From a virus: a stretch of DNA of 27,385 nucleotides. Location of the stretch: the IMG/VR virus record IMGVR_UViG_3300030110_001689, positions 1 through 27,385 of that record. One strand, written 5' to 3'. Made by a program: the position numbers and the translations under genes. The notes under the pieces are model-generated. The model was given only the letters and a program-made list of their open reading frames with translations, did not search any database and had not been told where the DNA came from. Below are positions 6,131-15,781 of the stretch, piece after piece (the first letter of the stretch is position 1; the number at the start of each line of letters is the position of its first letter).

Positions 6131-7033
6131 GTGTCAAACTTTGGATATAGAGTATTAGGTTTCGGAGCCGGCGGTAGAACTGTAACCCCTTACGTATCAG
6201 CAACTGGCGGAAATACCACATTAACAGACGGTAACTTTAAGATTCACGTTTTTACAGGCGATGGTACTTTAACTGTTGCTAACGAAGGAACACCTTTAGG
6301 TTCAAATTCAGTAGAATATTTTGTTATTGCAGGTGGTGGCCCAGGTGGTGGAAAATACCGTGGAGCAGGCGCAGGAGGCGGAGGCTGGAGAACAAACTAT
6401 CCAAGTCCAGCTACAGGCGGCCTTGCAATAGGATTTCAAGCATACCCTGTACAAGTTGGTGCAGGTGGTGGATCACCTCCAAACAGAGGATCAGCAGCGA
6501 CACCTTCAATTTTTAGTACGATCACTTCTACAAGAGGTGGAGGACACGGCCAACCTGGAGGATCAGGAGGCGGAACTAACGGAACATCTGGACAAGGCTC
6601 TGGAAACGCAGGTGGATTCTCTCCACCAGAAGGAAACCCAGGAGGAAACTCTACGGGTGGATGTTCGCCGGGAGCAGGCGGCGGAGGCGGAGCGAATAGC
6701 CCAGGAACTAACGGATCACCTGGATTTACTACACCAGCAGGAAGTGGTGGAAACGGATCAGGTATTTCAACATCATTTTTTGGACCGGGAGCACCGAGTT
6801 ACGGAACACCCGGACCATCGGGTTCAGAGAGATATTTTTCTGGCGGTGGCGCAGGAGGAACTTATTCCCCAGGCTCACCAGGGTCAGGAGGATACGGTGG
6901 TGGAGCCCAAACAAACAGTCCTTCTCCAGCTAATTCTGGAGGCGGTGGCGGAGGTGGAAACACTGGCGCAGGTTGTTGTTCACCGGGATTAGGAGGATCA
7001 GGATTTGTAGCGATTAGATACAAGTTCCAATAA
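6131..7033 (+). CDS. Glycine-rich fibre/adhesin-like protein
   Basis: 300 residues. It starts with GTG at 6131 behind a strong AGGAGG. Residues 1-70 are beta-like (GNFKIHVFTGDGTLTVANEG, then VEYFVIAGGGPGGG), the standard entry to the glycine-rich domain found in many marine phage fibres. Residues 75-285 are dominated by Gly, Ser, Pro and Asn, with runs up to seven Gly. The chain ends in GGSGFVAIRYKFQ, the usual C-terminal strand of that domain. Such sequences can form polyglycine-II bundles, as in the gp38 adhesins of T-even-like phages. There are eleven X-Pro-Gly triplets (GPG, QPG, NPG, TPG and several SPG) and three Cys in CSPG contexts (GGCSPG, CCSPG). Role inferred: distal adhesin or fibre domain. 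It lies two small steps upstream of the oxygenase block, making it a candidate substrate. Confidence 0.7.
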   Translation: MSNFGYRVLGFGAGGRTVTPYVSATGGNTTLTDGNFKIHVFTGDGTLTVANEGTPLGSNSVEYFVIAGGGPGGGKYRGAGAGGGGWRTNYPSPATGGLAIGFQAYPVQVGAGGGSPPNRGSAATPSIFSTITSTRGGGHGQPGGSGGGTNGTSGQGSGNAGGFSPPEGNPGGNSTGGCSPGAGGGGGANSPGTNGSPGFTTPAGSGGNGSGISTSFFGPGAPSYGTPGPSGSERYFSGGGAGGTYSPGSPGSGGYGGGAQTNSPSPANSGGGGGGGNTGAGCCSPGLGGSGFVAIRYKFQ

Positions 7034-7037
7034 TATT

Positions 7038-7505
7038 ATGGCACACTTTGCAAAATTAGATGAAAACAACGTTGTACTTTCTGTTCATTCAGTAGGTGAT
7101 GAACACCTTATGAAAAATGGAGAAGAGAATGAAGAAGTTGGTATTAACTTTTTAAAAAACGTACACGGTTGGGAAAATTGGAAACAAACTTCATACCACA
7201 CAAGAAGAGGAAGATATTTAAATCATGATGGATCAGTTGCATCTGATCAAAGTAAGATGTTAAGATATAATTATGCAACCCCTGGATCTACATATGATCC
7301 AGTAAAAAATGCGTTTATATTACCCAGAGCTAGAAATGACGACGGGGTAGTATTTGACAGTTGGACAATAAACGAAACTACAATGGATTGGGAAGCACCA
7401 ACTCCAGAACCTTCAAGCCAAACTAATGGCGTAGATGATTTTTATCATTGGAATGAAGGAACTCAATCATGGGACAAAGAGGTTATTTGGCGGGAAGGAA
7501 TGTAA
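7038..7505 (+). CDS. Small fibre-module protein of the MAHFAKLDENN family
   Basis: 155 residues, beginning four bases after the fibre stop with no clear Shine-Dalgarno. The opening MAHFAKLDENNVVLSVHSVG, then GINFLKNVHGWENWKQTSYH, a GSTYDPVKNAFILPRA segment, and SWTINETTMDWEAPTPEP are the diagnostic blocks of a small protein that is very widespread in marine phages. It is usually found next to fibre genes and annotated only as hypothetical. The C-terminus here is Trp-rich. Possible roles are a fibre tip, an appendage subunit or a fibre-assembly chaperone; none is demonstrated by the sequence. It is the last gene before the oxygenase block. Confidence 0.6.
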   Translation: MAHFAKLDENNVVLSVHSVGDEHLMKNGEENEEVGINFLKNVHGWENWKQTSYHTRRGRYLNHDGSVASDQSKMLRYNYATPGSTYDPVKNAFILPRARNDDGVVFDSWTINETTMDWEAPTPEPSSQTNGVDDFYHWNEGTQSWDKEVIWREGM

Positions 7506-7519
7506 TACACTAAGTTCCT

Positions 7520-8062
7520 ATGAAAGAAGTACAGCTATCTAAACAATTTATTCTACACGGAAAACTACCCTTATCATTATCTAAAGTTAATTTTGAAAAT
7601 GTTTATGACTATATAAGTTGGAACATTCAAGATCTACATGAGCGAAAATTAAATAGATTTAAAGACGCTCACGTGCCTCTATCACAAGATATTATTTGGA
7701 TATTAGATTACGCTGAAGCAAAATATCAATTAAAAACAGGTAAGACGTTAAGAAGAAAAACCCATGATGTTATGGTTCATTGGAAAAATGAAGGATCTAT
7801 AAAACGACATCATTTAGATTATGCTGATTTAAAAAACAGTCCAGATATTGTTATGCTTTATTTTATAGATAGTGATGACAATGATATGATAATAGAGTAT
7901 GATAACAACCGTAAGAAAGGGGTGTATTGGAATATGCCGATAGAAAGCAACAAGTATGTAATGTTTAATTCTAATCTAGAGTATTATCTTTTACCCAATA
8001 AATCAGATGACCAAAGAATAGTTTTAAGAGTTACTTATGAAGAAACAACACCGCATTGTTAA
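7520..8062 (+). CDS. Degenerate 2OG-Fe(II) oxygenase-like protein (array member 1)
   Basis: 180 residues. The second half fits a double-stranded beta-helix: KTHDVMVHWKNEGSIKRHHL then His98-Leu-Asp100 (HxD), a strand VMLYFIDSDDNDMIIEY, then YVMFNSNLEYYLLPN and a final strand QRIVLRVTY with Arg166. In canonical relatives the 'SxLxHxVxPN' position holds the distal iron-binding His. Here it is Tyr155/Tyr156, so the facial triad is incomplete. A nearby His could substitute, or the protein may be inactive. It is the first gene of the array, and its last 26 bases overlap the next gene in another frame. The fold assignment is inferred from pattern only and is the least certain of the array together with the member at 11049. 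Confidence 0.5.
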   Translation: MKEVQLSKQFILHGKLPLSLSKVNFENVYDYISWNIQDLHERKLNRFKDAHVPLSQDIIWILDYAEAKYQLKTGKTLRRKTHDVMVHWKNEGSIKRHHLDYADLKNSPDIVMLYFIDSDDNDMIIEYDNNRKKGVYWNMPIESNKYVMFNSNLEYYLLPNKSDDQRIVLRVTYEETTPHC

Positions 8063-8519
8063 TAATTTTTTATCTAGAGTCGATCTAGAAAGAATGTTGC
8101 AAGATGTAAAGTTAAACTTTGAAAACAATGTTCATGAGGATGAGTTGAAGTCAGGATTACAGACTTATTCTAATTTGCATATTGTTAATAGAGGTGAGCA
8201 TTGGAAAAATTTTTTTAATAAATTAAATATAGAAATGAAAAAGTTTAATAAAAAACATATTCATAAATGTTGGGGTTTAAAGATTGATAGAAAACAAGAT
8301 CCTCATTATCATAGACATGGTAACTTTGTGACTAGTGTTTATTATCTTCAAAACGAGGACCCTAGTTTAGGCACGCACCTAAAAGATGAGGACACAGTAA
8401 TACCAGGACGTGAGAATTCTATTGCAATATTTGATGGCGACATCTTACACGATGCAGTTTTTCCAGAGAATAAATTAAAACAACCTAGATATACTTTAAT
8501 TACAGATTACTACGAATGA
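8037..8519 (+). CDS. 2OG-Fe(II) oxygenase-like protein, HxH type (array member 2)
   Basis: 160 residues. The core motif DPHYHRHGNFVTSVYYLQ gives His92-Arg-His94 leading into the typical 'SVYYL' strand. The distal part is SIAIFDGDILHDAV with His138, and the last strand PRYTLITDYYE carries Arg151 as the candidate 2-oxoglutarate-binding residue. Placement of a His where most dioxygenases have Asp is the pattern of the phage/bacterial group around PF13759 as I remember it. The short N-terminal part (residues 1-75) is helical, Lys/Asn-rich and has no recognisable motif. The gene overlaps the previous one by 26 bases and the next by ATGA. Substrate unknown. Confidence 0.65.
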   Translation: MKKQHRIVNNFLSRVDLERMLQDVKLNFENNVHEDELKSGLQTYSNLHIVNRGEHWKNFFNKLNIEMKKFNKKHIHKCWGLKIDRKQDPHYHRHGNFVTSVYYLQNEDPSLGTHLKDEDTVIPGRENSIAIFDGDILHDAVFPENKLKQPRYTLITDYYE

Positions 8520-9145
8520 ATTTAAAAAATACATATTGGTATTTTCAAAGTGCCTTATCTCCTAAATTTTGTGATGAACTTATTGAACACGGTAACATGC
8601 AAAAAGAACAAAGAGGTATAACAGGTAAGTTTAAAGATAAGGAAGCTTTAGTAGGTGCTGATCTTAAAGATTTAAAAAAGAAAAGAGATTCTAACATTGC
8701 TTGGTTAAATGACCAATGGATCTATAAAGAAATACTCCCTTATGTAAAAATGGCTAATGAAAATTCAGGTTGGAATTTTCAATTCGATGTTACCGAATCT
8801 TTTCAATTTACTAAATACAAATTAAATCAATACTATGGCTGGCATTGTGACTCTTGGGATATACCCTACCATAAACCAGACGATTTAAACTTACACAATA
8901 AAATAAGAAAACTATCTGTTACATGTAGTTTATCTGATCCTAAAGATTATGAAGGCGGAGAACTAGAGTTTGCTAAAAATAACAACGAACCCGGAAAGAA
9001 AATTGAAACAGGTGTATGCTCAGAAATATTGCCTCGAGGCTCTATTGTAGTGTTTCCATCTTTTATGTGGCACAGAGTAAAAAAAGTTACGAAAGGAACT
9101 AGATATAGTTTAGTGGCTTGGACTTGTGGTAAACCTTATCACTAG
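8516..9145 (+). CDS. PKHD-type 2OG-Fe(II) hydroxylase (array member 3)
   Basis: 209 residues and the most canonical member. The N-terminus LSPKFCDELIEHGN is the usual helical entry of prolyl-4-hydroxylase-like (P4Hc/PKHD) proteins. The active site reads KYKLNQYYGWHCDSW (His110, Asp112), a strand RKLSVTCSLSDPKDYEGGEL with the characteristic 'YEGGEL' turn, then PRGSIVVFPSFMWHRV (distal His186) and TRYSLVAWTCGKPYH with Arg196 for 2-oxoglutarate. All expected ligands are present, so catalytic activity is likely: hydroxylation coupled to decarboxylation of 2-oxoglutarate to succinate, with Fe(II) and O2. Relatives are common in T4-like cyanophages. The natural substrate is unknown. It starts in ATGA overlap with the previous gene. 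Confidence 0.85.
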   Translation: MNLKNTYWYFQSALSPKFCDELIEHGNMQKEQRGITGKFKDKEALVGADLKDLKKKRDSNIAWLNDQWIYKEILPYVKMANENSGWNFQFDVTESFQFTKYKLNQYYGWHCDSWDIPYHKPDDLNLHNKIRKLSVTCSLSDPKDYEGGELEFAKNNNEPGKKIETGVCSEILPRGSIVVFPSFMWHRVKKVTKGTRYSLVAWTCGKPYH

Positions 9146-9176
9146 ACAAATACTATAGATAAGATATATATGAATT

Positions 9177-9830
9177 ATGAAAGATAGTATAAGAGAAGAA
9201 AGTTATTTTGCATCACCTGTGTGGCTAGACTATAGACCTGAGTGGGTCAATACTTTAAATAAAGCAGGTAACATTCATATTAAAAATGCGAGAGCAAAAA
9301 ATAAAGACTTGATTAAAGATACAAAAGACTTCGGACTTATTCATCATTCTGATGAATTGCAATCAGACCCTAATTTTAAAACTTTGTTAGATTACATAGT
9401 AGACAAAAGCTGGCATTTTTTAGATAGTCAAGGATACAACATAGAAAACTATATTCCTGTAGTAACGGATTTTTGGTTACAAGAATTTTCTAAAAATGGT
9501 GGATCTCATCAACATACACATGTTCATCCTAATAGTCATGTATCAGGTTTTTATTTTTTAAAATCTTCAGCTGCAACTGCACAACCTGTTTTCTTTGATC
9601 CACGGCCATCAGCTGCAATGGCAAAGCTACCAGTTAAAATAAATAAAGATATAAACTCATCTAACATACAGGTTTCTCATCAATGTAATCCAGGTGCTTT
9701 GATGTTCTTTAATAGTTATCTACCGCACGCTTTTACAGTTGATCAAGGCAAAGAACCTTTTAGGTTTGTACATTTTAACATTCAAGCAGTACACAAAGAT
9801 TTAATACAAGGAACGGCACCAACAATATGA
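9177..9830 (+). CDS. 2OG-Fe(II) oxygenase, TIGR02466/PF13759-like, HxH type (array member 4)
   Basis: 217 residues. The beginning (SYFASPVWLDYRPEWVNTLN) matches the 'F.sPvw' opening of the PF13759/TIGR02466 group. The central motif NGGSHQHTHVHPNSHVSGFY gives His115-Val-His117 followed by the VSGFYFLK strand and VFFDPRP. The distal segment is GALMFFNSYLPHAFTVDQG with His184, and EPFRFVHFNI supplies Arg196. This complete arrangement suggests an active enzyme, although the HxH set means three His rather than the common 2-His-1-carboxylate triad. It is the only array gene separated from its predecessor by a noticeable gap (31 A+T-rich bases). It ends in ATGA overlap with the next gene. Confidence 0.8.
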   Translation: MKDSIREESYFASPVWLDYRPEWVNTLNKAGNIHIKNARAKNKDLIKDTKDFGLIHHSDELQSDPNFKTLLDYIVDKSWHFLDSQGYNIENYIPVVTDFWLQEFSKNGGSHQHTHVHPNSHVSGFYFLKSSAATAQPVFFDPRPSAAMAKLPVKINKDINSSNIQVSHQCNPGALMFFNSYLPHAFTVDQGKEPFRFVHFNIQAVHKDLIQGTAPTI

Positions 9831-10462
9831 GTTTTAAGAAAAAGAAATACGAAGTAATCAAACAAGCTATTAGTCCTGAACTAGCTCAGTTCTGTTATAA
9901 TTATATATTATTAAAAAGAGATGTAGCTCACACTATGTTTAAAAGTCAATACATATCCCCATTCGAAGAAGCCTTTGGAGTTTGGGAAAAGGTTACTCAA
10001 CAGGTTCCGGATACTTATGCTCATTATGCTGACATAGCGATGGAGACACTACTACTTAAACTACACCCACTTATGGAAAAGAAAACAGGAATGAATCTTT
10101 TTGAAAACTATTCTTATGTCAGAGTTTATAAAAAAGGTGATGTTTTAAAAAGACACAAAGATAGATTTAGTTGTGAGATATCTACGACGTTAAATTTAGG
10201 TGGAGACCCATGGCCTATTTATCTAGAACCATCTGGTAGACATGGTTTAAAGGGAACTAAGATAAATTTAAAACCTGGAGATATGTTGATATACAGAGGA
10301 GAAGACCTAGAGCATTGGAGAGAATCATTTACTGGAGAAAAATGCGCACAAGTTTTTTTACATTATAATAGTGAAGATACAAAAGGATCTGAAAATAATT
10401 TATACGATACAAGACCTCATCCTGGTTTACCTTCATGGTTTAAAAGAAAGAGCTACTGTTAA
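9827..10462 (+). CDS. 2OG-Fe(II) oxygenase-like protein, HxD type (array member 5)
   Basis: 211 residues. The region YVRVYKKGDVLKRHKDRFSC gives His110-Lys-Asp112, followed by EISTTLNLGGDPWPIYLE. It continues with INLKPGDMLIYRGEDLEHWR (distal His163) and KCAQVFLHYN. The 'STTLNL' and 'GD.liYrG..LeHWR' blocks are familiar from a cyanophage/pelagiphage family. At the position where Arg normally binds 2-oxoglutarate the sequence has Lys172-Cys173. Lys can do this job in prolyl 4-hydroxylases, so activity is still plausible. The C-terminal tail LYDTRPHPGLPSWFKRKSYC is long and basic compared with the other members. It shares TAATG with the next gene. Confidence 0.75.
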   Translation: MSFKKKKYEVIKQAISPELAQFCYNYILLKRDVAHTMFKSQYISPFEEAFGVWEKVTQQVPDTYAHYADIAMETLLLKLHPLMEKKTGMNLFENYSYVRVYKKGDVLKRHKDRFSCEISTTLNLGGDPWPIYLEPSGRHGLKGTKINLKPGDMLIYRGEDLEHWRESFTGEKCAQVFLHYNSEDTKGSENNLYDTRPHPGLPSWFKRKSYC

Positions 10463-11052
10463 TGATTACACATGTTGATAACTATTTATTCAGTAAAAAG
10501 ATAGATACCATAGATAATAAAACTTTAACTGAAGATTGTTTAGACATAGAAAAAAAGTTATTACTAACCTTTCCTGTTATTGATAAAAGATTTTATGGCA
10601 CATTATCTACTGCTCATCATTACGAATACAATATGCTAACCTTTCCAGCTAAACAAATTAATAAATTATACTACGAGTTACAAAATATAGTTTCTCCTTA
10701 CTTAGAAGACAGAACATATTATATAAAAAGTTGGTTGAATGTTTTTAGAAAAGGTCAGAAAATAGATTGGCACGATCATTGGCCTTCTAAATTAAAAGTT
10801 TGGCATGGTTTTTATTGTGTGCAAGTAGGTAAAAGTTATACTGAATATAAAATACCTGAAGTAAAAAAAATAATTAAAATAGATAGTGAAGAAGGTTTAA
10901 TTGTATTTGGAAAAAGTGATGGGGACAAGCATAGAAGTTCACCGTGGAGAGAAACTAAACGACATAGAATTACAATTGCTTTTGATATTATACCGATAGA
11001 ATCGATTGAGTCTAAATTACAGGGAAACCATTTTATACCATTTAAGATATGA
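10462..11052 (+). CDS. 2OG-Fe(II) oxygenase-like protein, HxH type (array member 6)
   Basis: 196 residues. KSWLNVFRKGQKIDWHDHWP places His104-Asp-His106 at the proximal site, followed by VWHGFYCVQVG, a strand equivalent to 'SGvYYv'. The distal portion EGLIVFGKSDGDKHRSSPW carries His157, and KRHRITIAFDI provides Arg169. The long N-terminal half (residues 1-85) is helical and unlike its neighbours. The gene is coupled on both sides: TAATG upstream and ATGA downstream. The key residues look intact, so an enzyme is likely. Alternative ligand choices are possible because several extra His lie close by (His115, His168). Confidence 0.65.
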   Translation: MITHVDNYLFSKKIDTIDNKTLTEDCLDIEKKLLLTFPVIDKRFYGTLSTAHHYEYNMLTFPAKQINKLYYELQNIVSPYLEDRTYYIKSWLNVFRKGQKIDWHDHWPSKLKVWHGFYCVQVGKSYTEYKIPEVKKIIKIDSEEGLIVFGKSDGDKHRSSPWRETKRHRITIAFDIIPIESIESKLQGNHFIPFKI

Positions 11053-11513
11053 TAGACGTAGCTGAAATACCTATAAGAGTTTGTAAGTCTGATAAGCTAG
11101 ATAATAAAAAACTAATAGCTGCTTTCAAAGAATACATAGTTGGTGTTCCATCTGGAACAGGTGTTTTAGATTTACCACATTCTGAGATCATCAAATTAAA
11201 CCAAAGCTATTATAAAATTATAAGTTCAATGTTTCCAAAAAATGTAGTGGATAAAACACAGTCGTGGATTGTTACTGAAACAAATAGTGAAACAGGATGG
11301 CACAACAACTTTCAAGAAAAACATAAATCTAAAGTACAGGTATCGGGGATCTGTTATCTTACCGAAACAAAACGTGGAATAGAATTTCAAAACAATTTTT
11401 TTAAAGCCGAAACTATACCCGTGTTAGATCACTGGTATATATGGCCTTCTCAATTAGGACATAGATCAAACGAAATTAAATGGGCTGTAGCAACCAATAC
11501 TATTTTTAAATAA
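11049..11513 (+). CDS. Degenerate 2OG-Fe(II) oxygenase-like protein (array member 7)
   Basis: 154 residues. The pattern of the family is recognisable: SWIVTETNSETGWHNNFQEK, then KVQVSGICYLTETKRGIEFQ, then WYIWPSQLGHRSNEIKWAVA. The proximal motif is His85-Asn-Asn87, so the Asp/His ligand is replaced by Asn. The distal His138 is kept. The last strand reads IKWAVATNTIF, so the 2-oxoglutarate Arg is replaced by Trp145 (Lys144 adjacent). Two substitutions at functional positions suggest an altered or lost catalytic activity; His92 could in principle serve as a ligand. The start ATGATAGACGTA is identical over eleven bases with that of the gene at 12571. Confidence 0.55.
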   Translation: MIDVAEIPIRVCKSDKLDNKKLIAAFKEYIVGVPSGTGVLDLPHSEIIKLNQSYYKIISSMFPKNVVDKTQSWIVTETNSETGWHNNFQEKHKSKVQVSGICYLTETKRGIEFQNNFFKAETIPVLDHWYIWPSQLGHRSNEIKWAVATNTIFK

Positions 11514-11972
11514 ATGTTAGATATAAAAGTAACAACCATAGAACCTGAGTTAAATAAAAAAATTAAAAAAGTTGTGTGTGCAGAAAAACACAAATGGAAA
11601 AAAGATTTAAACAATGTTAAAGCTTTGACATCCGGTTTTAATCCAGACTATACTTTCTTTAATGAACTCTATGATTTTTCATTTAATTATTTAAAAAAGT
11701 ATACGCAGACAAAATTAAATAAGTCTTGGTGGTGGGCAAACTATTACTCTAAAGACCATCACTGTAATCCTCACAACCATGAGCCTGAATTATTATCATG
11801 TATTCTTATTGTAAAGTCCTCTTCTGATAACCCACTTTATTTTATAAATAACGATAAAAAATATTTTATGATAGAAGAAGACGGAATGATAATATTTTTT
11901 GATTCAAGGTATCAACACGGTGTAAAAAAATGTAAGCACAGAAGAATTACATGTGCATTGGATTTTAAATGA
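11514..11972 (+). CDS. 2OG-Fe(II) oxygenase-like protein, HxH type (array member 8)
   Basis: 152 residues, the shortest member. SWWWANYYSKDHHCNPHNHE gives His87-Asn-His89 entering the strand LLSCILIVK. A short beta hairpin (NPLYFINNDKKYFMIEEDG) leads to MIIFFDSRYQHGVKKC with distal His135, and HRRITCALDFK ends the protein with Arg144. The ligand set is complete in the HxH form. The N-terminal 65 residues are very Lys-rich and probably helical. The start immediately follows the previous stop (TAAATG) and the end overlaps the next start (ATGA). Substrate unknown. Confidence 0.65.
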   Translation: MLDIKVTTIEPELNKKIKKVVCAEKHKWKKDLNNVKALTSGFNPDYTFFNELYDFSFNYLKKYTQTKLNKSWWWANYYSKDHHCNPHNHEPELLSCILIVKSSSDNPLYFINNDKKYFMIEEDGMIIFFDSRYQHGVKKCKHRRITCALDFK

Positions 11973-12574
11973 TTGAATACTATCACCCATTCTTTGGACC
12001 ATTTTTAATGCAGACCAAGATAACTAATGAAGAAGTAGCTGCTATAAAAAAGCTATGTGTCAAATCAAAAAAACTTGATTTTAGAAAAAAATTAGCTGGG
12101 GTTATTGAACACGAGTATACTATTAATAGAAAAGAATATCAAAAAATTATAAAAGAATATCTAGATTGCTATAAACATGGTTATCAAAAGTTTCACAATA
12201 ATACTCTTGGACCTTTAACATGCAATTCTGCATGGGTTAATTATATGGTAGCTGGAGAATCTAATCCTCCACATACACATAGTAGCTGTCACTTCTCTAG
12301 TGTTTTATATTTAGATACTCCTCCTGGTCTTATAAAAGAAAATAAAGACTACTTGGGTTCTTCTGAAGGACCTGGTGCTATCATCTTTAGATATGGAGAA
12401 CAGAGAATGCACAACATAACAGAACATGCACACTTACCTGAATCTGGAGATCTGTTTATTTTCCCGTTTAATCTAATGCACTATGTTGTTCCCTTTAAAA
12501 GCAAAGGCGAAAGAATTTCTGTAGCCGCTAATTTTACAACTGATCTGACTCTTTCTAAGGGTGTAATAGAGTGA
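11969..12574 (+). CDS. 2OG-Fe(II) oxygenase, PF13759-like, HxH type (array member 9)
   Basis: 201 residues. NSAWVNYMVAGESNPPHTHS gives His102-Thr-His104, followed by SCHFSSVLYLDTPPG. A longer insert (GSSEGPGAIIFRYGEQRMHN) precedes ESGDLFIFPFNLMHYVVPF with distal His171, and GERISVAANFTTD supplies Arg182. This is a complete and familiar phage oxygenase pattern, and the conserved 'FPf.LmH.V.Pf' block is well kept. The insert has its own His148, which could line the active site. The central motif is closely similar to that of the next gene at both protein and DNA level, so the two are probably a duplicated pair. The last bases overlap the GTG start of the next gene. Confidence 0.8.
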   Translation: MIEYYHPFFGPFLMQTKITNEEVAAIKKLCVKSKKLDFRKKLAGVIEHEYTINRKEYQKIIKEYLDCYKHGYQKFHNNTLGPLTCNSAWVNYMVAGESNPPHTHSSCHFSSVLYLDTPPGLIKENKDYLGSSEGPGAIIFRYGEQRMHNITEHAHLPESGDLFIFPFNLMHYVVPFKSKGERISVAANFTTDLTLSKGVIE

Positions 12575-13068
12575 TAGACGTAAGTCCCTTTAAAGACCAC
12601 TTACTACATAAAAAGAAAGTCTTGGACCTAATTAAAAAAATGCCAGATGTAACTATAAAAGATCATACAGAGTCTTTGACCAAAACAGACTTCTATTTAA
12701 AACCAAATGATACTAGAGAATACTGGGACTATTTCTTTCCTCACTTAGAAACATTTTTATTAAACATGGCTGCTTCTTTAAAAAGCCAATACTACATTAT
12801 ACATAGAGCTTGGTATCAACAGTACTGTAAACAAAACTTTCAAGGTTGGCACAATCATTCTAGCTGTCAGTTTTCTAGTGTGTATTTTTTAGAATTACCC
12901 GATCCTCAAGTAGCAACAGAGTTTGAAGACGGATCTAAAGTAGAGGTAAAAGAAGGAGACATTCTTACTTTCTCATCTCATCTTTACCATAGGTCACCAA
13001 TTAATAATTCTAATAAACGTAAAAGTGTAATAGTATTTAACTCTTCTTTTGAAGGATACATATCATGA
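12571..13068 (+). CDS. 2OG-Fe(II) oxygenase, PF13759-like, HxH type (array member 10)
   Basis: 165 residues, starting with GTG in a GTGA overlap with the previous stop; the next candidate start would break the conserved N-terminal pattern MIDV seen in other members. QNFQGWHNHSSCQFSSVYFL gives His94-Asn-His96. The distal block is EGDILTFSSHLYHRSPINNS with His140, and RKSVIVFNS places Arg150 in the last strand. The insert of the preceding gene is absent. The ligands are complete. The first twelve bases match those of the gene at 11049 apart from the first base, and the core motif resembles the preceding gene. Confidence 0.75.
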   Translation: MIDVSPFKDHLLHKKKVLDLIKKMPDVTIKDHTESLTKTDFYLKPNDTREYWDYFFPHLETFLLNMAASLKSQYYIIHRAWYQQYCKQNFQGWHNHSSCQFSSVYFLELPDPQVATEFEDGSKVEVKEGDILTFSSHLYHRSPINNSNKRKSVIVFNSSFEGYIS

Positions 13069-13544
13069 TAGATATAAAAAGAAGTTTTTTACCAAGAGAA
13101 GAATTAGTAGAATTAAATAAGACAGTATTAGGCAACTTATTTGAATGGTTTATTCAGGGAGTGTATGATGACAACGATACTCATAAACAATTTGTACATA
13201 TATTCTATAAAAATGGTAAACCCTCAAGTCATCATTTTTCTATAATTAAACCGGTTTTAAACCAATTAAATATTGAGAACTTAATAAGGGTTAAATTAAA
13301 CCTATTAACCAAAACATCAAAGATCATAGAGCATGATTATCATAGAGATAATGAGTCCTCTAATGCATTGACTTCTATCTTATATCTTAATACTAATAAT
13401 GGTTATACAAGATTTAAAGATCAGAATGTGAAGTCACAGGCAAATACCTTGCTTACATTTCCAAGTGCTACGTTTCACTCAGGAACAACCTGCACTGACA
13501 AGGACTTTAGATTAGTATTGAATGTAGTTTACGAGGCTTTTTAA
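13065..13544 (+). CDS. 2OG-Fe(II) oxygenase-like protein, HxD type (array member 11)
   Basis: 159 residues. VKLNLLTKTSKIIEHDYHRD gives the classical His93-Arg-Asp95 pair. LTSILYLNTNNGYTRFKDQ follows as the expected strand and turn ('YLN.NnGyT.F'). NTLLTFPSATFHSGTTCTD then carries distal His138, and DFRLVLNVVYEAF ends with Arg149. This is a compact, canonical HxD enzyme like the small dioxygenase-like proteins often found in T4-like cyanophages, where they are annotated as 2OG-Fe(II) oxygenases. It starts in ATGA overlap with the previous gene and its stop lies inside the hairpin at 13534-13548, closing the array. Confidence 0.75.
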   Translation: MIDIKRSFLPREELVELNKTVLGNLFEWFIQGVYDDNDTHKQFVHIFYKNGKPSSHHFSIIKPVLNQLNIENLIRVKLNLLTKTSKIIEHDYHRDNESSNALTSILYLNTNNGYTRFKDQNVKSQANTLLTFPSATFHSGTTCTDKDFRLVLNVVYEAF

Positions 13545-13594: not shown

Positions 13595-15781
13595 ATGCTA
13601 CAGAAACTAGGATTTTTACCCGGATTTAACAAACAAGTCACAGAAACTGGGGCCGAAGGCCAATGGTTTGATGGCGATAATGTGCGTTTTAGATACGGAA
13701 CACCTGAAAAAATAGGTGGTTGGCAACAGTTGGGAAGCGATAAACTGACAGGTGCTGGCAGGGCTCTTCATCAATTTGACAATAACGCAGGTATTAAATA
13801 TGCTGCTATAGGCACAAACAAAATTTTATATGTTTACTCTGGGGGTCAGTTCTATGACATACACCCAATTAGAACTACAATTAGTGGGGTAAACTTTTCA
13901 AGTACAAATGGCTCACCAACAGTAAGAATAACTTTTCCAACTCCACATAACTTACAAGATGATGACATTGTCTTGTTTGAAAATGTAAGTGGTATCTCTG
14001 GTTCTGGTTCTGCATTTACAGATGGTAACTTTAATAATTTAAAATACATGGTTGCTTCTGCACCATCAGCAACTGCCATAACTGTTACAATGGGCGGTAA
14101 TGAAGGAGCTAGTCCAATGACTAACGTAGGTAGCGCAGATGCCTTATTGTACTATCGTGTTGGACCTTCTCAACAAGTTGGAGGTTTTGGATGGGGTACT
14201 GGACAATGGTCAGGAACTGTTTCAGGACCAGCTACAACTACTTTGAGCACAGCTTTAACAGATACTGTAACTACAACTATAGTCATCGCTGACTCTACAC
14301 AGTTTCCAGCATCAGGAGAAATTAGAATAGGAACTGAAGATATATCTTACACAAACAATAACACGGCAACAGGGACCTTGAGTGGAGGAAACAGAGGTGT
14401 AAACGGAACCACTAAGGCTACTCACTCAGCTGGAGTTACAGTAACCAACATCTCGGCTTTTGTTGCTTGGGGTGAATCCTCTTCTGATGACGTTACTCTT
14501 GATCCAGGTCTTTGGGTATTAGATAATTTTGGAACTAAACTTATTGCACTAATTTATAATGGTGCATGTTTTGAATGGGACTCTGCTCCTACTAATGCAA
14601 CAGCAATTAGAGCTACCATAATAGCCAATGCACCAACAGCATCTCGTCACGTAATGGTTTCTACACCAGATAGACACTTAGTATTTTTTGGAACTGAAAC
14701 AACAGTGGGCAGCACTGCCAGTCAAGACGATATGTTTATAAGATTCTCAGATCAAGAAAATATTAGCGGCACAAATGCATACACTGTAACTGCAACCAAT
14801 ACTGCAGGAACGCAAAGACTTGCTGATGGCTCTAAAATAATGGGAGCTATTAGAGGTAGGGATGCTATTTACGTTTGGACCGATACCGCATTGTTTCTTA
14901 TGAGATTCGTAGGTCAACCTTTTACATTTGCTTTTGAACAGGTAGGAACTAACTGTGGTCTGTTGGGTAAAAATGCTGCTGTAGAAGTTGACGGTTCTGC
15001 ATATTGGATGTCAGAAAATGGATTCTTTACTTATGATGGTCAGTTAAAATCAATACCATGTTTAGTAGAAGATTTTGTTTATGACGATATAAATACTACA
15101 GCAAGAGATCTTGTTAATGCAGGATTAAATAATTTGTTTGGTGAAGTAACATGGTTCTATTGCACTAATGGATCTAACATAGTTGACAGATCAGTAACAT
15201 ATAATTATCTAGACTCAAAACCACAAAGACCTATTTGGACAACAGGATCTTTAGCTAGAGCAGCCTGGGCTGACTCAGCTGTATTTGGTAGACCACATGC
15301 AACTTCATATGATCCTGATAGTCAAGATTCTTACGATGTTGCAGGAAATACCGATGGTTGCACAATATACTATGAGCACGAAACAGGGACCGATCAAGTA
15401 TTGGCAGGAGGAGCAACAACTGCTATACTTGGAACTATATCTTCAGGTGACTTTGATATTACTCAAAGAGTGGCTAGGGGCGGGCAAATGTCTGTAGGTA
15501 TGCCAGATCTTAGGGGTGATGGTGAATTTATGATGAAAATAAGTAGGTTTTTACCAGACTTTATTTCACAGGTAGGAACCACAACAATAGACTTTACAAC
15601 TAGAGATTTTCCTAATAGTTCTTCTCAAACACAGACCTTTACAACAACGTCGGCAACGACTAAAGTAGATACTCGTGTAAGAGCTAGATCAATTGCGTTG
15701 ACTGTAAAAAATACTTCAACCTCACAAGATTGGAAACTCGGCACATTTAGATTGGATATACAACCGGACGGGAGAAGATAA
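13595..15781 (+). CDS. Tail nozzle / DNA stabilisation protein, P22 gp10-like
   Basis: 728 residues. The opening KLGFLPGFNKQVTETGAEGQ followed by WFDGDNVRFRYGTPEKIGGW is the highly characteristic start of the P22 gp10-like packaged-DNA stabilisation/nozzle family, and the length suits it. Repeated beta-propeller-like segments follow (HVMVSTPDRHLVFFGTE, GRDAIYVWTDTALFLMRF, CGLLGKNAAVEVDGSAYWMS). Residues about 214-283 are an inserted beta module (TTIVIADSTQFPASGEIRIG, DISYTN, GNRGVNGTT, HSAGVTV) shared with the protein at 1522-2352. Expected role: the ring below the adaptor that forms the tail tube or nozzle, keeps DNA in and carries the fibres. It lies directly after the oxygenase block, and its stop is followed immediately by the next ATG. 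Confidence 0.85.
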   Translation: MLQKLGFLPGFNKQVTETGAEGQWFDGDNVRFRYGTPEKIGGWQQLGSDKLTGAGRALHQFDNNAGIKYAAIGTNKILYVYSGGQFYDIHPIRTTISGVNFSSTNGSPTVRITFPTPHNLQDDDIVLFENVSGISGSGSAFTDGNFNNLKYMVASAPSATAITVTMGGNEGASPMTNVGSADALLYYRVGPSQQVGGFGWGTGQWSGTVSGPATTTLSTALTDTVTTTIVIADSTQFPASGEIRIGTEDISYTNNNTATGTLSGGNRGVNGTTKATHSAGVTVTNISAFVAWGESSSDDVTLDPGLWVLDNFGTKLIALIYNGACFEWDSAPTNATAIRATIIANAPTASRHVMVSTPDRHLVFFGTETTVGSTASQDDMFIRFSDQENISGTNAYTVTATNTAGTQRLADGSKIMGAIRGRDAIYVWTDTALFLMRFVGQPFTFAFEQVGTNCGLLGKNAAVEVDGSAYWMSENGFFTYDGQLKSIPCLVEDFVYDDINTTARDLVNAGLNNLFGEVTWFYCTNGSNIVDRSVTYNYLDSKPQRPIWTTGSLARAAWADSAVFGRPHATSYDPDSQDSYDVAGNTDGCTIYYEHETGTDQVLAGGATTAILGTISSGDFDITQRVARGGQMSVGMPDLRGDGEFMMKISRFLPDFISQVGTTTIDFTTRDFPNSSSQTQTFTTTSATTKVDTRVRARSIALTVKNTSTSQDWKLGTFRLDIQPDGRR

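Follow-up and report, generated by a model that had tools for sequence, protein, structure and literature searches.

The stretch of viral DNA analysed here (the window) is IMG/VR record IMGVR_UViG_3300030110_001689, 27,385 bases in length. It contains eleven consecutive open reading frames (ORFs), named O1 to O11 in order, which are all on the + strand, encode proteins of 152-217 amino acids (aa) and tile positions 7520-13544. Their products are assigned below to the double-stranded beta-helix (DSBH) fold, the fold of the iron/2-oxoglutarate (2OG) oxygenases. The array is flanked on one side by a Gly-rich, fibre-like gene and a 155-aa gene, and on the other by a core gene. By its core genes, the window is placed among the pelagiphages of the HTVC023P type: the stabilization-type protein shares 44-45% identity with its counterparts in phages 023Pt_psg01, HTVC027P and HTVC023P. 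For O5, the identity to HTVC023P and HTVC033P proteins is 62-63%. The pelagiphage host, SAR11, is an abundant ocean bacterium.

An earlier examination of the letters alone (the sequence-only reading) had described eleven consecutive oxygenase-like genes at 7520-13544, with almost all junctions abutting or overlapping by 1-4 bases. The eleven packed ORFs were found as described. The junctions, from O1 to O11, measure -26, -4, +31, -4, -1, -4, 0, -4, -4 and -4 bases, so that the statement on packing holds for 8 of the 10 and fails for the -26 and +31 junctions. The identical eleven-gene order is present in two more contigs, L177 and L178, and an assembly artefact or frameshifted fusion was therefore rejected; the array is confirmed as real. 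Putative internal promoters and terminators in the array were no more numerous than in shuffled sequence. The G+C content at third codon positions is the same in the array as in the rest of the window. Recent acquisition from a cellular host is thus unsupported; a scan of genome contigs also found no relative of O4, a weak negative since only peptide patterns were scanned.

The fold assignment draws on several kinds of search. Pfam cut-offs were exceeded by four members: O3 scored 59.4 bits against a cut-off of 27 for PF13640 (2OG-FeII_Oxy_3), and O4, O9 and O10 passed the curated cut-off of PF13759 (2OG-FeII_Oxy_5). Matches under the cut-off were obtained for O8 and O11 (the latter with 24.4 bits, just under that of PF13640), O1, O2 and O6 matched at E values of 0.02-0.06, and no Pfam match was found for O5 or O7. 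The TIGR02466 cut-off of 62.5 bits was reached by no member, the best being O4 with 49.3. PHROG 2OG families, or families linked with them here, matched 10 of the 11 ORFs, O7 having no PHROG match. Iterated profiles (170 sequences from the fetched loci and the window) recovered all eleven ORFs, and no other ORF of at least 80 aa in the window.

Because iterated profiles can drift, AlphaFold2 models were examined for O1 and O5, the doubtful members with deep alignments; the other nine are assigned to the DSBH fold by their sequence profiles. Structure prediction had been proposed in the sequence-only reading as a check on the array products, and both of the products for which it was run came out as DSBH (Z ~16). 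The O5 model (predicted local distance difference test, pLDDT, 93.8) matched prolyl hydroxylases at a Foldseek value of 4e-9, with a VIA Z of 15.8 and root-mean-square deviations (rmsd) of 2.5-2.9 over 161-168 residues. A sequence search for PDB relatives of O5 returned nothing significant, its matches being given by fold comparison alone, and its likeness to the prolyl 4-hydroxylases is likewise one of fold. The O1 model (pLDDT 85.2) was closest to 2rg4_A (VIA Z 16.4, rmsd 4.2 over 168 residues) and also matched PHD2 (Z 14.7, rmsd 3.3 over 155 residues). PHD2, the Pseudomonas putida P4H and PBCV-1 vCPH share the DSBH fold with O5 and O1 at 10-19% identity. For O9, a single-sequence PDB search gave noise and a family profile was required; the O9-group profile matched 2RG4 and 3BVC at 2e-16, with the HxH, distal His and Arg aligned. 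These two PF13759/TIGR02466-like structures, unlike the array, are single bacterial proteins of unknown function. O3 matched PiuC structures at 1.8e-6. An EGLN3-like fold of marine phage 2OG proteins has been noted in the Phold paper (PMC12774648).

The members differ in their putative metal sites. An HxD motif is found in three of them: O3 (8516-9145; PF13640 7e-16, phrog_61 5e-38), which resembles the PiuC/YbiX 2OG-Fe(II) oxygenases; O5 (9827-10462; phrog_2954), with H110, D112 and H163 invariant and PHD/P4H-like folds as its matches; and O11 (13065-13544; PF13640 5.7e-5, phrog_274 3e-41, phrog_61 4e-7), in whose family H93, D95, H138 and R149 are kept at 96-100%. Six members have HxH. These are O2 (8037-8519; phrog_274), with H92, H94, H138 and R151 invariant in seven relatives; O4 (9177-9830; PF13759 6.5e-13, and TIGR02466 at 5e-13, under its cut-off); O6 (10462-11052; phrog_81 9e-8), with H104, H106, H157 and R169 invariant; O8 (11514-11972; phrog_81 4e-18); O9 (11969-12574; PF13759 1.3e-16); and O10 (12571-13068; PF13759 2e-8, phrog_81 6e-26). 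All nine have the distal His, and their metal ligands are near-invariant within their families. The Arg that follows the distal His is conserved in O2, O3, O4, O6, O9 and O11; O8 and O10 have an Arg or Lys near the 2OG-binding position, O5 and O7 have none there, and O1 is uncertain.

The remaining two members lack such ligands. O1 (7520-8062; phrog_81 9e-6) appears to belong to a pseudo-enzyme family without a conserved metal-binding His: among 50 distinct sequences, Tyr, Asp, Arg and Trp are conserved, and no His. O7 (11049-11513; profile matches of 1e-6 to 1e-13) is a shortened DSBH protein in which the metal/2OG site has been lost. Its relatives in other contigs are approximately 170-176 aa long and most have HxH, His and Arg; in the window, L177 (7177-7641) and L178 (8479-8943) it has 154 aa, reads HNN and has no Arg, and in the latter two, its closest relatives, the distal His is replaced by Tyr. 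The earlier claim of a jelly-roll signature, intact or recognizably degenerate, in every ORF thus stands for the nine that keep the site, and not for O1 and O7, which are probably not catalysts. Comparison of O7 between the window and L177 gave 25 synonymous and 14 non-synonymous changes, with a ratio of non-synonymous to synonymous rates (dN/dS) of 0.12 (Fisher p 3e-10), and dN/dS for the other members against their relatives is 0.03-0.24. By this measure all array members are under purifying selection, O7 included despite its lost site.

Some variation within the array was also observed. In the eleven-gene lineage, approximately 22 residues of O7 are gone, including a CC...C...H segment conserved in relatives. 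Between the window and L012, L013 and L020, identity is only 59% for O6 but 91-95% for O1, O4 and O5, and the window's version of O6 is carried by L177 and L178 (92%); this pattern looks like an allele swap by recombination. In L012, the counterpart of O3 is truncated to 135 aa.

The genes on either side of the array were then considered. Upstream lie a Gly-rich (32%), Pro-containing fibre/adhesin-like gene (6131-7033, + strand; PF21722, E 1e-7; phrog_2295), with conserved segments SPPEGNPGG and YSPGSPG, and the gene for the 155-aa protein (7038-7505, + strand; phrog_7759), which is a possible adaptor or second substrate. Downstream, at the module boundary, lies a core virion structural gene (13595-15781, + strand; phrog_3287, 9e-93), annotated as a stabilization protein in a relative. 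A Gly-rich ORF was found within 3.5 kb upstream in 43 of 50 arrays (those with at least three genes and enough upstream sequence); anchors placed at random in these contigs had one in 39% of cases, and the downstream side of the arrays in 3 of 50. The motif PxxSPx(Q/E)G occurs in 70 of 118 Gly-rich ORFs and in 1 of 938 others; its counterpart in the window, SPPEGNPGG, is invariant in six aligned sequences. A short PPVSPPQGNPGG-like segment is also conserved inside the otherwise Gly-rich fibre proteins of many loci.

Pairwise similarity between arrays was correlated with that of the fibres (r 0.37, p 0.001) and, most strongly, with that of the ~150-aa genes (r 0.53, p 0.001). No covariation was seen with the downstream core gene (r -0.14). 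The 'down' and 'upstream of fibre' controls on the fibre covariation are weak, most pairs sharing no similarity there. What is new here is the position of the arrays, immediately after Gly-rich fibre genes, and the covariation of their content with the genes on that side, as opposed to the core gene on the other. This pattern is consistent with a bounded module, but cannot tell a functional tie from co-transfer by linkage. At 14-19% identity, there was no support for the ~150-aa genes of podo- and myophages being homologous.

The sequence-only reading knew of no comparable set of oxygenase genes and had suggested a search for arrays of five or more in marine phage contigs. That search yielded further examples of up to 11. 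In a sample that is biased, since the loci were chosen for their resemblance to genes of the window and the contigs are fragments, runs ranged from 1 to 11 genes; the next longest after the window were of 10 (L020/L092, one contig), 9 (L013, L034, L036 and L095) and 8, and L177 and L178, with the full eleven, came from a second scan. Eleven in one row is thus exceptional within the sample. Arrays of 2-10 are common in HTVC023P-type relatives, and O3, O4 and O5 turn up repeatedly as an almost constant group of three.

Similar sets are found in unrelated phages. Five tandem genes are annotated in the T4-like phage HTVC008M and six in Mosig; both phages have tandem DSBH genes next to tail genes, with O3- and O5-type members (and, in Mosig, an O11-type member), but are myoviruses with fewer members than the window. 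In S-CREM1 (PMC9964418; OP535465), nine tandem genes are annotated, of which seven were recovered by the present profiles. This tandem set is near a collagen-like gene, but S-CREM1 is a T4-like cyanophage with another set of members, including a JmjC-annotated gene, and with a tryptophan halogenase gene near by. S-SM2 and S-RIM44 have four genes each, scattered among hypothetical genes in the latter. In the T4-like phages HTVC008M, Mosig, Sf-FR1, S-SM2 and S-RIM44 the array is next to tail-fibre or Gly-rich genes. S-SCSM1 shares with the window a high multiplicity of PF13640/PF13759 genes (24 2OG genes), but their ORF numbers are scattered genome-wide in small groups (PMC9602691). The 2OG genes of S-SCSM1 and S-CREM1 have been reported as auxiliary metabolic genes (PMC9602691, PMC9964418); the relevant part of the S-CREM1 paper, on its 10 2OG genes, gives counts and host metabolism and draws no link to fibres (PMC9964418). 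For the phage type of the window itself, Wittmers et al. 2022 (PMC9599517) described eight non-orthologous 2OG families near a 'ferrochelatase'. Those genes were said to be frequently nearby but not adjacent, with the ferrochelatase as a partner, whereas in the window there are eleven contiguous genes and the 'ferrochelatase' is one of them. It is apparent that tandem oxygenase arrays are already known as a kind, eleven being the extreme in this sample. The suggestion that they were undescribed is accordingly only partly true, given the published counts and the sets already annotated in S-CREM1 (nine), HTVC008M (five) and Mosig (six).

Two family labels look wrong in the light of these assignments. 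The family of O5, phrog_2954, is labelled 'ferrochelatase', but the O5 model is a confident DSBH, none of 71 phrog_2954 members matches the ferrochelatase Pfam domain at E 0.1, and in the deposited 'ferrochelatase' proteins (phrog_2954 and relatives), with homologues in L007, L010, L170, L171, L173 and L174, the HxD and His are invariant. The family of O2 and O11, phrog_274, is labelled 'DNA endonuclease V'; HxD or HxH, the distal His and Arg are conserved in it, O2 and O11 gave no endonuclease V Pfam match at E values up to 1 and matched PF13640/PF13759 instead, and by sequence they group with the present oxygenases. In a seasonal study, phrog_61 and phrog_2954 were treated as separate functions (PMC11561400). 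The predicted fold of phrog_2954 corrects the premise of two papers on a ferrochelatase partnering oxygenases, and heme- or iron-insertion arguments built on it therefore need revisiting.

Taken together, the data lead us to put forward, at somewhat less than even odds, the proposal that the array is a swappable module that tailors the adhesin at the tail tip by oxidation, some paralogues serving as partners without catalysis. The fibre gene, the 155-aa gene and the DSBH array would be expressed together with the virion genes. The nine proteins with metal sites would use Fe(II), O2 and, in most cases, 2OG to hydroxylate the adhesin and neighbouring proteins, or oxidize them in some other way, at side chains such as Pro or Ser of the SPPEGNPGG and YSPGSPG segments; this would happen before the tail is assembled or while it is. 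O1 and O7 would be partners with no catalysis of their own, in heteromers or as substrate-presenting subunits. Enzyme sets would differ with the adhesin, so that gain, loss and exchange of a set would go along with that of the fibre, in the contest over host recognition. Activity, substrate, timing and partner role are all inferred in this proposal. In its favour are the boundaries of the module, the recurrence of this placement in phages that are unrelated, the conservation of the segments with Pro, and a fold like that of protein hydroxylases, O5 being close to the protein prolyl hydroxylases; the purifying selection on all members also supports it. Independent support comes from the relevant section of PMC3909814, which counts Fe(II) oxygenases among the commonest genes in the hypervariable islands of marine phages and tabulates them under host recognition, with no mechanism given in that section. 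A literature search found no published tie between phage 2OG oxygenases and hydroxylation or other modification of fibres.

Several points weigh against this proposal. The case for fibre modification is comparative. The covariation could arise from physical linkage by itself, and the range over which the core gene varies is narrower. O5 has no Arg approximately 10 residues after its distal His, so that its binding of 2OG is putative. In HTVC027P, the three DSBH genes are on the opposite strand, with no Gly-rich gene directly upstream, and the passage of PMC9964418 on 14 S-CREM1 virion proteins names no DSBH protein and no modified residue. Among the roles listed in the sequence-only reading (modification of fibre protein, surface glycan, nucleotide or DNA, or host proteins), fibre-protein modification is favoured by the comparative evidence. 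More guardedly still, it may be that marine phages of unrelated families carry cassettes, exchangeable among them, of DSBH oxygenases together with pseudo-oxygenases, by which a Gly/Pro-rich tail-tip adhesin is tailored post-translationally.

The main rival, which we consider rather unlikely, is that an insertion hotspot between the fibre and a core structural gene collects unrelated oxygenases with separate host-protein or metabolite targets, the neighbouring gene not being a substrate. Gene number and order do vary, from 1 to 11 genes among relatives, the HTVC027P set is inverted, O3 resembles the bacterial housekeeping-type hydroxylase PiuC, and fibre-adjacent sites are variable in marine phages according to the same section of PMC3909814. 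A hotspot of this kind does not, however, readily account for the single fold that nearly all inserted genes share, time and again across unrelated families of phages, for an array content that tracks the fibre side but not the opposite flank, or for the recurrence of the O3-O4-O5 trio. It is also conceivable that several members are structural or chaperone tail proteins that retain the jelly-roll with little or no catalysis, as the selected O1 and O7 without metal sites and the embedding of the array among virion genes might suggest; a purely structural function leaves the near-invariant metal ligands in 9 of the 11 unexplained, and this was judged the least probable explanation.

Auxiliary metabolic functions, in which the enzymes consume 2OG or alter iron or nitrogen metabolism in favour of phage growth, are the standing interpretation for cyanophages and pelagiphages (proposed in PMC3037559, PMC9602691 and PMC11561400), and host iron uptake goes up during HTVC027P infection (PMC12753301). 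A drain on 2OG would nevertheless require neither eleven diverged specificities nor pseudo-enzymes, and the 'ferrochelatase partner' behind the iron argument is itself predicted to be a DSBH protein; such a role seems improbable for the array. Equally doubtful is the stepwise modification of a phage or host glycan, lipid or nucleic acid (e.g. surface polysaccharide or DNA hypermodification). The small-molecule DSBH enzymes SnoN and EctD are among the fold matches of O5, and glycosyltransferase genes occur near by in HTVC023P and HTVC027P, but neither a glycosyltransferase gene nor a nucleotide-modifying one was identified within the window array or immediately next to it. AlkB-type proteins rank below protein hydroxylases for O1 and are not among the matches of O5, which is weak evidence against a nucleic acid substrate.

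If the array does tailor the adhesin, a class of marine phage genes that is among the commonest and the least understood would gain a concrete role, testable in cultured HTVC023P on HTCC1062, and host-recognition diversity would have a chemical layer beyond sequence variation. The most useful products of the analysis are the corrected annotations, the pseudo-enzymes under selection and a testable hypothesis of adhesin tailoring.

Two further observations were made at related loci. In HTVC027P, the three oxygenase-fold genes (L009, 12295-13956) occupy the same place as the window array, on the opposite strand. In T4-like marine phages, a tryptophan halogenase gene is found near the array, likewise beside tail genes (L170, 1296-2690; L173, 3415-5016; L175, 1306-2910; L176, 1903-5014).

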